In this document: in pieces, positions 29,223 through 32,362 of the stretch | How the letters are laid out: each line of letters begins with the position of its first letter | Numbering within the stretch: the first letter of the stretch is position 1 | Source of the DNA: Citromicrobium bathyomarinum | GTDB lineage: Bacteria; Pseudomonadota; Alphaproteobacteria; Sphingomonadales; Sphingomonadaceae | DNA: 64,000 nt | Direction: 5' to 3' | Assembly (NCBI RefSeq): GCF_021021475.1 | Contig: NZ_JAINWL010000004.1 | Coordinates: 62,001 to 126,000, forward strand | The notes under the pieces: model-generated | The model's input: the letters and a program-made list of their open reading frames with translations, nothing else | The model's database searches: none | Told to the model about the DNA's origin: nothing | Made by a program: the position numbers and the translations under genes

Positions 29223-31211
29223 ATGTCCGATGATCTGTTCGAAGGTACGCCGACCTCCAGCGGCGATTACGATTCCTCCTCGATCGAGGTGCTCGAAGGG
29301 CTGGAGCCCGTGCGCCGCCGCCCCGGCATGTATATCGGCGGGACGGACGACCGCGCGCTGCACCACCTCGCCGCCGAAGTGCTCGACAACTCGATGGACG
29401 AGGCGGTGGCGGGCCACGCGAGCCGGATCGAGGTCAAGCTGGAGGAAGGCAACCGCCTGACCATCGCCGATAACGGGCGCGGCATGCCGATCGACGAGCA
29501 TCCCAAGTTCCCCGGCAAGTCCACGCTGGAGGTGATCCTCTCCACTCTCCACTCGGGCGGCAAGTTCTCAGGGAAAGCCTATGCGACTTCGGGCGGCCTG
29601 CACGGCGTCGGCGTCAGCGTGGTCAACGCGCTGTCCGAACACACCCGGGTCGAGGTCGCGCGCGACAAGACGCTTTATGCGCAGGAATTCTCCAAGGGGC
29701 AGACGCTGGGCCCGATCGAGACGGTCGGCGCGGCGCCCAACCGACGTGGCACCACGGTCAGCTTCACCCCCGACCCGGAAATCTTCGGCCCGCGCCAGTT
29801 CAGCGCCAAGCGGCTGTTCAAGCTCGCGCGCTCGAAAGCCTACCTTTTCGCCGGTGTCGAGATCCGGTGGAAATGCGCCCCCAGCCTCGCGACCGACGAT
29901 GTGCCCGAGGAGGAAACTTTCAAGTTCCCCGGCGGGCTTGCCGACCACCTGACCCAGCGGGTCGCCGGGCGTGAATGCGTCACCGCGCAGCCCTTCGCCG
30001 GCAGCCAGGATTTCCCGAGCGTCGATGGCGTGTCCAACGGGCGGGTCGAATGGGCGATCGCCTGGCCGCTGTTCTCCGATGCCGCGACCAGCTGGTACTG
30101 CAACACCGTGCCCACGCCCGATGGCGGGACGCATGAACAGGGGCTACGCAACGCGCTGACCAAGGGCTTGCGCGCATTCGGCGAACTGGTCGGCCAGAAG
30201 AAGGCGAAGGACATTTCCGCCGACGACGTGATGGCGGGCGCCGAGGTGCTGCTGAGCGTCTTCATCCGCGATCCCCAGTTCCAGAGTCAGACCAAGGACC
30301 GGCTGACCAGCCCGGAAGCGACCAAGCTGGTCGAGAACGCGGTGCGCGACCATTTCGACCACTTCCTCGCCGACAATATGGAGCGCGGCAAGGCGCTGCT
30401 GGGCGAGGTGATGGAGCGGATGGACGAACGCCTGCGCCGCCGCGCCGAGCGTGAGGTCAAGCGCAAGACGGCCACGAATGCCAAGAAGCTGCGCCTGCCG
30501 GGCAAGCTGACCGACTGTTCGGGCGAAGGCGACAAGGAAACCGAGCTCTTCATCGTCGAGGGCGATTCCGCGGGCGGCAGCGCCAAGCAGGCGCGCGACC
30601 GCAAGACGCAGGCGATCCTGCCGATCCGCGGCAAGATCCTCAACGTCGCCAGCGCCTCCGCCGACAAGATCCGCGCCAACAGCGAAATCGCGGACCTCAT
30701 CCTCGCGCTCGGCTGCGGGGTGCGCAAGGACTGCGATGCCGATCAGCTGCGCTACGACCGCGTGGTCATCATGACCGATGCCGATGTCGACGGCGCGCAT
30801 ATTGCGACGCTGCTGATGACGTTCTTCTTCCAGGAAATGCCCGACCTGGTGCGCAAGGGGCACCTGTTCCTCGCCCAGCCGCCGCTCTACCGCCTGACCG
30901 CGGGCAAGGAGAGCCGCTATGCCCGCGACGAGGAGCACCGGCGCGAGCTGGAAGAGACGGTGTTCAAGGGCAAGAAGATCGAGATCAGCCGCTTCAAGGG
31001 CCTCGGCGAAATGAACCCCGCGCAATTGCGCGAGACCACCATGCACCCTGACAGCCGCAGCCTGATCCGCATCACCCTGCCCCCTGAGTTCGAGGACCGC
31101 GCGGCGGTGAAAGAGCTCGTCGGGCAGCTGATGGGCCGCAATCCGGAGCACCGCTTCCAGTTCATCCAGAACAAGGCGGGCGATCTGGATCGGGAGTTGA
31201 TCGATGCTTGA
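29223..31211 (+). CDS. parE: DNA topoisomerase IV subunit B
   Basis: ParE is the ATPase subunit that decatenates chromosomes with ParC. It has the GHKL ATPase (VLEGLEPVRRRPGMYIGG, AEVLDNSMDEAVAG, GRGMPIDEHP, SGGLHGVGVSVVNALS), a transducer domain, and TOPRIM (FIVEGDSAGGSAKQARDRKTQ). The IGGTDDR form distinguishes it from GyrB. The 662-aa product is full length. The downstream repeat begins 10 bases after its stop. Confidence 0.94.
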   Translation: MSDDLFEGTPTSSGDYDSSSIEVLEGLEPVRRRPGMYIGGTDDRALHHLAAEVLDNSMDEAVAGHASRIEVKLEEGNRLTIADNGRGMPIDEHPKFPGKSTLEVILSTLHSGGKFSGKAYATSGGLHGVGVSVVNALSEHTRVEVARDKTLYAQEFSKGQTLGPIETVGAAPNRRGTTVSFTPDPEIFGPRQFSAKRLFKLARSKAYLFAGVEIRWKCAPSLATDDVPEEETFKFPGGLADHLTQRVAGRECVTAQPFAGSQDFPSVDGVSNGRVEWAIAWPLFSDAATSWYCNTVPTPDGGTHEQGLRNALTKGLRAFGELVGQKKAKDISADDVMAGAEVLLSVFIRDPQFQSQTKDRLTSPEATKLVENAVRDHFDHFLADNMERGKALLGEVMERMDERLRRRAEREVKRKTATNAKKLRLPGKLTDCSGEGDKETELFIVEGDSAGGSAKQARDRKTQAILPIRGKILNVASASADKIRANSEIADLILALGCGVRKDCDADQLRYDRVVIMTDADVDGAHIATLLMTFFFQEMPDLVRKGHLFLAQPPLYRLTAGKESRYARDEEHRRELEETVFKGKKIEISRFKGLGEMNPAQLRETTMHPDSRSLIRITLPPEFEDRAAVKELVGQLMGRNPEHRFQFIQNKAGDLDRELIDA

Positions 31212-31220
31212 GGGTTGTTG

Positions 31221-31333
31221 CCCCTCATCCAGGCGTCGCTAGTCACTTGCGTGACAAGCTCTGCCATCCTTCTCCCAACGGGAGAAGGATGGCAGGTGTG
31301 GCGCGAAGCGCTTAGCCGGAGTTGGATGAGGGG
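31221..31333. repeat. Left inverted repeat of the DUF559 element
   Basis: The outer ends CCCCTCATCC and GGATGAGGGG pair with each other. A perfect 16-bp inner stem (CTGCCATCCTTCTCCC, 31261-31276, with 31280-31295) closes a 3-base loop. The last six codons and the stop of the DUF559 gene are encoded here. The strong hairpin also sits right after parE and could terminate its transcript. Confidence 0.85.
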
Positions 31334-31653
31334 CCTACCTGCCGCTCCAGTTCCGCCAGCACGCCCTCAGTATTGTCCATCACCTCGTGGTTCCAGAATC
31401 GCACGACGCGGTAGCCCTCGCTTTCCAGCCATTGCGTGCGGGGCCGGTCGCTCTCTTCAGAATGCTGCCCGCCGTCGAGTTCGATGACGAGCAGCAATTC
31501 GTGGCAGTAGAAGTCGACGATGTAGCGCCCCAGCGGCACTTGCCTGCGAAACTTGAGGTTGCAGAAGCGTCGGTTGCGAAGGTGCGACCAGAGCAGTGCT
31601 TCGGCGTCGGTTAAAGCTTTGCGTAATTCCCGGGCGCGCTTGATCTCTCTCAT
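31312..31653 (-). CDS. DUF559 endonuclease-like protein
   Basis: The product is 113 aa, full length for the family. The PD-(D/E)xK-type active site is visible as D47 (YIVDFYCHE), E58 and D60 (VIELDGGQHS), followed by RVVRFWNHEV. The N-terminus (ARELRKALTDAEALLWSHLRNRR) is the standard DUF559 helix. DUF559 is related to Vsr-like nucleases, but its role is not established. The last six residues (PSSNSG, from within VGPSSNSG) and the TAA stop come from the flanking repeat. No methylase partner is adjacent. Confidence 0.88.
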   Translation of the reverse strand: MREIKRARELRKALTDAEALLWSHLRNRRFCNLKFRRQVPLGRYIVDFYCHELLLVIELDGGQHSEESDRPRTQWLESEGYRVVRFWNHEVMDNTEGVLAELERQVGPSSNSG

Positions 31654-31661
31654 TTGCTTAC

Positions 31662-31776
31662 CCCCTCATCCAACTCCGACTAGGCTCCTTCGTCGCCAAG
31701 TCTTCATATCCTTCTCCCCTGGGAGAAGGATAGCTGAGCTTGTCGCGACAGCGACTAGCGATGCTTGGATGAGGGG
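31662..31776. repeat. Right inverted repeat of the DUF559 element
   Basis: This is the second copy of the palindromic repeat, starting eight bases upstream of the DUF559 ATG. Outer ends are CCCCTCATCC and GGATGAGGGG. A perfect 12-bp inner stem (TATCCTTCTCCC, 31707-31718, with 31721-31732) has a 2-base loop. Relative to the left copy it is inverted. With no other gene between 31654 and 31840, it makes up most of that gap. Confidence 0.85.
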
Positions 31777-31840
31777 GCTTGCCGACAAAAAAATCCCTTG
31801 CCCCCTGTAAGAAATCCGCTCCTTGGCCGACTAAAGGCGC

Positions 31841-32362
31841 ATGACCGGGCAACAGGCCACTCTTTACCACCAGGCGGGCGAGCAGTTCGCGCCGGCCATC
31901 GCGCGGCTTGCCCGGGCGATGGAGCGCGATGCGGACAAGGCGCGCGATCTGGAGCAGGATATCCATCTGGAGCTGTGGCGCAGCTTCGAACGCTTCGATG
32001 GCAAGTGCGCGCTCAAGACCTGGGTGTTTCGCGTCGCCCACAACGTTGCGGCGGACCATGTCGGGCGCGATGCGCGTAAGCCTGCCACCGTCGATATCGA
32101 TGAGCTCGACAGCCTGACCGCGACCGGTGAAGGCGAGGTTGCGCGGGCCGAGACCCACGCGCTCCAGCGCCTCCACGCCATAATCCGCACCCTCCCCCTG
32201 CTCGACGCGCAGGTGATCCTGCTGTGGCTCGAAGGCCATTCGGGCGCGGAGATCGCGGAGGTGACGGGCCTGTCCAGCGGCGCGGTCGCCACCCGCCTCT
32301 CGCGGTTGAGGGAGAAACTCGCCGCGCAATTCGAACTTCCGGAGATCGACCATGACCGATGA
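31841..32362 (+). CDS. ECF-type RNA polymerase sigma factor
   Basis: The product is 173 aa with region 2 (DIHLELWRSFERFDGKCALKTWVFRVAHNVAADHV) and region 4 (LPLLDAQVILLWLEGHSGAEIAEVTGLSSGAVATRLSRLREKL). It has no extra domains. AAAGG lies just ahead of the ATG. The overlapping downstream membrane protein is a candidate anti-sigma factor by position. Signal and regulon are unknown. Confidence 0.92.
   Translation: MTGQQATLYHQAGEQFAPAIARLARAMERDADKARDLEQDIHLELWRSFERFDGKCALKTWVFRVAHNVAADHVGRDARKPATVDIDELDSLTATGEGEVARAETHALQRLHAIIRTLPLLDAQVILLWLEGHSGAEIAEVTGLSSGAVATRLSRLREKLAAQFELPEIDHDR

Follow-up and report, generated by a model that had tools for sequence, protein, structure and literature searches.

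The window analysed here, a stretch of 64,000 nucleotides from Citromicrobium bathyomarinum, carries between a parE-type topoisomerase gene and a sigma factor gene a single short gene of the DUF559 family, enclosed by two palindromic repeats in inverted orientation (Table 1). A first-pass annotation, made from the sequence alone, had described a DUF559 gene between inverted hairpin repeats, and this observation is confirmed. Its end-to-end alignment of the reverse-complemented left repeat with the right one also held (inverted-repeat score 115), as did the perfect stems of 16 and 12 bp, the placement of the last six codons and the stop within the left repeat, and the lack of an obvious target-site duplication, of which we found none. 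Its extent of 31221-31777 held in part and is corrected to 31221-31776, and the length of 115 bp that it gave for the repeats is right for the right repeat, the left one being 113 bp long.

Table 1. Features of the DUF559 unit and the genes that anchor its site (positions in the window)
Feature	Position	Strand	Remarks
DNA gyrase B / ParE-type topoisomerase subunit (parE)	29223..31211	+	left anchor of the site
Left palindromic repeat, 113 bp	31221..31333		gene-downstream side; inverted relative to right repeat; holds DUF559 stop and last six codons
Central hairpin of left repeat	31261..31295		16-bp perfect stem, arms 31261-31276/31280-31295
DUF559 (PF04480) PD-(D/E)xK Vsr-like nuclease, 113 aa	31312..31653	-	PF04480, 139 bits
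Gene-proximal tail of left repeat	31323..31333	+	TGGATGAGGGG
Right palindromic repeat, 115 bp	31662..31776		gene-upstream side; solo copy of same type at same junction in relative G006
Gene-proximal tail of right repeat	31662..31672	-	TGGATGAGGGG on minus strand
Central hairpin of right repeat	31707..31732		12-bp perfect stem, arms 31707-31718/31721-31732
Sigma-70-type sigma factor	31841..32362	+	right anchor of the site

Both repeats are themselves palindromic, with CCCCTCATCCA at the start and TGGATGAGGGG at the end, and their central hairpin has the form CCTTCTCCC...GGGAGAAGG. This hairpin pattern matches twice in the window and in none of 100 shuffles; a count of the same pattern across the 3.2-Mb window genome gave five places, two of which are the unit's own repeats. 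A covariance model of the whole repeat was run on ten genomes of the genus, with the two strands of the palindrome counted once. It found five places in the window genome (G000), a set slightly different from that of the hairpin pattern, five in G179, which belongs to the same species, four in G001, nine in G006, two each in G005 and G002 and one in G003; there were no places in G004, G007 and G008. No gene was found bracketed by the nine places in G006, which we read as orphaned solo repeats from a unit that is lost or unsampled.

With 139 bits against the curated PF04480 cut-off of 20.6, the protein meets the standard for membership of DUF559, and the five residues that are invariant among 53 relatives (E18, D47, E58, D60 and H64) are all present in it. 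Its AlphaFold model is confident (mean pLDDT 87). In a Foldseek search the first rank was taken by 3hrl, a DUF559 protein from N. gonorrhoeae, and ranks 2 and 3 by 3r3p, the catalytic domain of the homing endonuclease I-Bth0305I (E 4e-5); mitochondrial ribosomal proteins followed at ranks 4 and 5, and Vsr (1vsr) at rank 6. Sequence profiles matched 3hrl and 3r3p alone, the latter at E 0.0014. The model thus predicts a homing-endonuclease-like fold for the window protein. The candidate role of a defence nuclease was rejected, the PADLOC match being weak (DpdF, 13.6 bits).

Bracketing of DUF559 genes elsewhere was scored by local alignment of the 250 bases upstream of a gene with the reverse complement of the 300 bases downstream, a score of at least 36 counting as a pass. 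This threshold was one of five tried and was adopted as the standard after the named-genome result described below; the contrast was similar from 30 to 60. Among 147 genomes of the window's order, 72 carried DUF559, in a patchy distribution and with 1 to 10 matches per carrier genome. Matching inverted repeats were present on both sides of 86 of the 110 DUF559 genes scored in this order, compared with 1 of 422 control open reading frames from the same stretches and 1 of 101 isolated control frames; the exception encodes a GIY-YIG nuclease. In named genomes from several phyla, 50 of 74 DUF559 genes passed against 4 of 408 control frames, and the passing loci include Chloroflexi, Planctomycetota and Melainabacteria in addition to many proteobacteria. 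The four passing controls, which belong to ordinary families or to none, lie about 430 bases or less from a DUF559 gene and therefore share one of its repeats. The first-pass annotation had proposed to test whether such repeats flank DUF559 genes more often than other genes; these comparisons show that they do and that the bracket is common to most of the DUF559 genes sampled. Two features of sampling should be kept in mind: the 111 places in the order are a part of those found and were chosen in descending rank with their flanks unseen, so that low-scoring DUF559 matches are under-sampled, and the 80 named loci were those closest to the query among 576 candidates. One of the former and six of the latter remained unscored as a flank ran off the stretch.

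In 75 of the 86 bracketed units of the order the open frame enters or crosses the downstream repeat, with the first stop inside the repeat in 13 and beyond it in 62, the stop lying before the repeat in the other 11. Immediately beyond the unit an extra copy of the repeat is found in 17 of 86 cases, against 0 of 86 for control windows at about 0.7 kb greater distance, whichever side is taken. Not every DUF559 gene is bracketed. Below the threshold fell 24 of 110 genes in the order and 24 of 74 in named genomes, some high-scoring DUF559 matches among them. A DUF559 type of about 195 aa that is found across the genus had no bracketing repeats in the four loci examined (L003, L178, L179 and L180), and it is possible that this is a domesticated form. 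One genus unit used below, at locus A (L156), scores just 27, since the repeat variants on its two sides differ. A DUF559 locus of N. gonorrhoeae (L133) has closely similar repeats on both sides with a direct score of 150 and an inverted score of 22.

Some insertion contexts recur. Nine loci with an lpd signature have units at pdhC-lpd (L044, L046, L054-L058, L060 and L065), and six have units beside carB (L040, L043, L045, L051, L066 and L067). The DUF559 proteins in these two contexts apparently come from several branches, at least three in the case of pdhC-lpd, with tree support values not considered. In-frame stops were seen in several DUF559 copies (L157, L170, L175 and L043), so units degenerate and their repeats outlast them.

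Particular repeat variants accompany particular genes. Where at least two units had been read in a genome (30 genomes), the repeat there that best matched a unit's upstream copy was its own downstream one for 67 of 71 units, against an expectation of 23.2. Across the 86 units, protein identity was correlated with repeat similarity (Mantel r 0.54, 0 of 999 permutations); this test took in close relatives, and part of its signal is common descent. Within the genus of the window, distinct DUF559 lineages are accompanied by distinct repeat variants.

Most of the bracketing repeats belong to a type that is already known and are hence not wholly new. The elements described as BoxC, PIT or 'intrastrand triplex motif' (TM-ECO) have been reported with 23 copies in E. 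coli MG1655 and in over 260 genomes (PMC4666352). TM-ECO forms a stable triplex in vitro, in vivo footprinting gave no support for stable triplexes, and neither mobility genes nor remnants of transposases or integrases were found around the E. coli sites (PMC4666352). A form common among the repeats that bracket DUF559 genes is CCCTCTCCC-loop-GGGAGAGGG-NN(N)-GGGTGAGGG, and a purine-rich hairpin is present in 266 of 368 flanks. The window repeat is a variant of this type. Part of its tail, GGATGAGGG, mirrors the arm GGGAGAAGG of the hairpin except that one A is replaced by T, and arm and tail are set apart by an additional spacer hairpin. The defining feature of the triplex motif, a hairpin followed by a tail that mirrors the 3' arm, is therefore met; the strict consensus GGGAGAGGG-NNN-GGGTGAGGG is not, as the window genome has no match to the pattern GGGAGAGGGNNNGGGNGAGGG.

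The mirror relation is maintained across loci, where arm and gene-facing tail co-vary. Among 186 non-symmetric combinations of arm and tail, a mirror fits better in 129 and a direct copy in 10, and the mean mirror match is 0.842 compared with 0.749 (sd 0.005) when arms are shuffled among loci. The commonest mismatch between arm and tail is again A to T. Such a mismatch is expected from the T.A-T triad of a triplex. The strict triplex pattern occurs in 27 of the 147 genomes of the order, and 24 of these 27 carry DUF559 as opposed to 48 of the 120 without the pattern (Fisher p 3e-6, uncorrected for relatedness). All 17 genomes with at least three matches carry DUF559; the three pattern-bearing genomes without it have one, one and two matches. 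A search of positions 31100-31900 for known RNA families, with an E-value threshold, gave RF02940 as its best match (E 0.011, 22.4 bits against a gathering score of 42.5), then mir-5681 (E 0.13). We took these as chance matches and rejected a known RNA family.

The same association extends in part to E. coli, whose ycjD (b1289) is a DUF559 gene. In MG1655 a TM copy lies about 165 bases past the 3' end of ycjD, with decayed copies between, and strain KE47 has a TM copy overlapping the ycjD stop codon. Upstream of ycjD no TM copy turned up, so that E. coli keeps half a bracket. YcjD has been classed with Vsr as a related PD-(D/E)xK protein, with no mention of repeats in the passages that bear on it (PMC1189080). 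A 1-kb query of the ycjD locus is covered to at least 80% in 3361 of 5426 E. coli genomes. As a clean empty-site test for ycjD we rejected the species, since four genomes without ycjD carry efflux genes at the site; an eef operon has been described there, which is consistent with this (PMC12817139). The alx-sstT junction was likewise rejected as a clean insertion, as two of its three variants are what would be expected if a deletion had occurred between CCCTCTCCC repeats inside the pair. The third variant, and the single variant at ygfF-gcvP, have different DNA there and no clean insertion. The ycjD loci sampled were L183, L184 and L328. Two of the E. coli records with the ycjD locus, NZ_CP141089.1 and NZ_OL790696.1, are of chromosome size (4.9 and 4.8 Mb) yet labelled as plasmids in the plasmid collection.

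Comparison of orthologous junctions within the genus shows that unit, solo, other and empty states alternate. Three junctions were compared, the window locus, locus A and locus B (L181), with G004 left out at all of them. At the window locus the full unit is present in G000, G179 and G001; G006 has a solo repeat between flanks that are the same, and G002, G003, G005, G007 and G008 have other intergenic DNA. At locus A the unit is full in G001 and G005 and solo in G000, G179, G002 and G007, with no insert in G008 and other inserts in G003 and G006; in G001 this unit adjoins a second direct copy of the repeat, placed where the relatives have their solo. At locus B the unit is full in G001, G005 and G008, G006 has a solo half-repeat, G002 has no insert, and G000, G179, G003 and G007 have other DNA. 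In G000 and G179 this other DNA comprises a small open reading frame, which in G179 is broken by an apparent IS element (L241, G179:C1:2363300-2365300). Solo repeats at the same junction in relatives were thus found at all three loci, and a relative without an insert at two of them (A and B). Neither a target-site duplication nor sharp insertion ends were visible at the three loci, where the flanks are too different for ends to be defined. The tree for locus A is weakly resolved (node support 0.156), so that loss of the gene in G000 and G179 fits as well as its gain in G001 and G005. The first-pass annotation had held that its reading of the locus as a minimal mobile unit would be refuted if DUF559 genes elsewhere lacked such repeats, random genes were equally flanked and no relative had an empty site. 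This combination was tested and not met, and that reading is supported; the mechanism remains unproven, as no transposition, cleavage or target duplication has been seen.

The cassette at the window locus does not share the history of its flanks. DUF559 has a dS of 0.60 between the window genome and G179, compared with 0.23 for parE, and of 0.064 between G179 and G001, compared with 0.20. This discordance indicates a cassette history distinct from that of the flanks, as would be expected from gene conversion or transfer between units. Against either relative the dN/dS of the window gene is about 0.14, and the protein is therefore maintained under purifying selection.

We regard the window as likely to hold one copy of a REP-like selfish unit, composed of a homing-type nuclease gene and its own cognate hairpin/triplex repeat, inverted on both sides. 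That gene and repeat form a real mobile unit appears very likely. A homing-like mechanism is a more open matter, for which we see roughly equal grounds for acceptance and doubt, since cutting, the form of DNA recognised, the direction of spread and the origin of new solos are all inferred. In such a mechanism the nuclease would recognise its own repeat in hairpin or triplex form, most likely while this is extruded in single-stranded DNA, and would nick or cut solo copies or nearby DNA. Repair of the break from a repeat-bearing copy as template would convert a solo repeat into a gene-bearing unit, and end-joined or slipped repair would leave new solo repeats. Recombination between repeat copies would delete the gene and return the site to the solo state.

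Several known systems resemble this unit in part. The REPtrons of REP-RAYT systems (TnpA-REP) share the arrangement of a single gene between inverted short palindromes, with non-autonomous solos elsewhere. Unlike these, the window enzyme is a PD-(D/E)xK nuclease and not a Y1 HUH transposase, neither window repeat contains GTAG or CTAC, and repeats of the window type have a mirror-image tail of the triplex type. BoxC/PIT/TM-ECO elements share the hairpin followed by a purine tail mirroring the 3' arm (PMC4666352), and many of the repeats that bracket DUF559 genes, those beside ycjD included, fall in the same sequence class. However, no enzyme was linked to them in the relevant sections of PMC4666352, and the window variant uses other letters (GGGAGAAGG / GGATGAGGG) and a spacer hairpin. 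The free-standing homing endonuclease I-Bth0305I (3r3p) shares the predicted fold of its catalytic domain and, by inference in the absence of cleavage data, the proposed logic of spread, in which sites without the gene would be cut. It differs in that the window protein, at 113 aa, barely exceeds the DUF559 core, its gene lies between hairpin repeats, and its relatives are not bound to one conserved host gene. Finally, the fold is shared with the Vsr/VsrA endonucleases (1vsr; Caulobacter VsrA, PMC12907096), of which VsrA has a DUF559 domain. In contrast to these, no methyltransferase adjoins the window gene, and the cognate repeats suggest, again by inference, that a repeat rather than a T:G mismatch may be the substrate.

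An alternative in which DUF559 is a passenger, captured between two copies of a palindrome that another enzyme moves (a RAYT-like Y1 or IS transposase), has some points in its favor: REPs with RAYTs show the same layout, E. coli bears triplex repeats and has a Y1 transposase (it served as control in our Y1 search), and many solo repeats lack a gene. We nevertheless consider it unlikely. A RAYT-type Y1 transposase (Y1_Tnp) was found in none of the ten genus genomes, in a search that did not cover other IS families; gene and repeat lineages are coupled; and in the two control sets together just 5 of 830 frames were bracketed, namely a GIY-YIG nuclease gene and four frames that lie next to a DUF559 unit. 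We also find it unlikely that DUF559 serves the host as a Vsr-like mismatch-repair or caretaker nuclease encoded by a locally mobile host gene, for which the hairpins would act as terminators or regulatory structures. This model can draw on the fold match to Vsr, on the dN/dS of 0.14 and on Caulobacter VsrA, a DUF559 protein that has been proposed as a mismatch-repair enzyme nicking T:G mismatches, is SOS-induced and has been named as the cause of the SOS response of a methyltransferase mutant (PMC12907096). Against it, the immediate neighbours of the window gene are parE and the sigma factor with no methyltransferase, DUF559 is patchy and varies from 1 to 10 matches per carrier genome, and terminators would not be expected to show gene-specific variants, mirror covariation or polymorphic sites.

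More remote still is a model of repeat control, in which a domesticated DUF559 cleaves extruded cognate hairpins and keeps their copy number low, the bracket serving autoregulation. The frequent overlap of the open frame with the downstream repeat (75 of 86 units) and the low number of class-A repeats, the window type (five places in 3.2 Mb), would agree with it. Yet the presence of DUF559 in 17 of 17 genomes with three or more triplex motifs is the opposite of suppression, and the gene-bearing sites are polymorphic, so we hold this model to be very unlikely. An artefact of chance or low complexity in G-rich flanks can be all but excluded. The repeats are G/A-rich and mutually similar, and among the named loci 164 of 1094 cross-locus pairs and 29 of 74 direct-orientation comparisons pass; however, own inverted pairs pass far more often (50/74 and 86/110) than controls from the same DNA (4/408 and 1/422), which refutes it.

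The GIY-YIG exception in the control set led us to examine this nuclease family, as a lead apart from the main claim. Stand-alone GIY-YIG genes appear to be bracketed too. In family f1, inverted repeats were present on both sides in 37 of 40 places, and 125 of 1560 cross-locus pairs passed; the 40 places were exclusively of this family and did not include every f1 place. Among the 30 best-scoring GIY-YIG loci, mostly of other families, 7 were bracketed. By simple patterns, CGTC-REP-like repeats lay on both sides in 13 of the 40 places compared with 1 of 1600 random window pairs, and TGTCGAAGG/TCGAGCGAAGTCGAG-like repeats in 15 of 40 compared with 0 of 1600. The loci concerned are L381-L420, L253:7571-7885, L335, L353, L355, L358-L360 and L363. 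CGTC-type REPs are a repeat class reported without an enzyme (PMC3733652). A bolder reading, toward which we lean slightly less than away, would have small stand-alone nucleases of at least two unrelated folds that occur in homing endonucleases, DUF559 and GIY-YIG, as the missing enzymes of large orphan palindrome families, which would together make up a class of mobile repeat that spreads without a transposase by structure-guided cutting and repair. DUF559 would then serve the BoxC/intrastrand-triplex repeats, those of E. coli ycjD included, and GIY-YIG the CGTC-type REPs and the TGTCGAAGG-type. No link of DUF559 or GIY-YIG to these repeats was found in the open-access literature searched, the coverage of which was partial, and priority is unproven.

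For the narrower and preferred reading, in which a DUF559 nuclease travels with its own cognate repeat, the consequences reach beyond Citromicrobium. The origin of the BoxC/PIT/triplex repeats had been an open question, and a cognate nuclease makes it directly testable, also in E. coli K-12, where ycjD is annotated. DUF559, a common family of unknown function, gains a concrete hypothesis unlike the mismatch-repair reading. The DUF559 nuclease is probably the hitherto missing enzyme behind the spread of a common orphan repeat family and, if this is true, short repeats would have a transposase-free route by which to colonise genomes.
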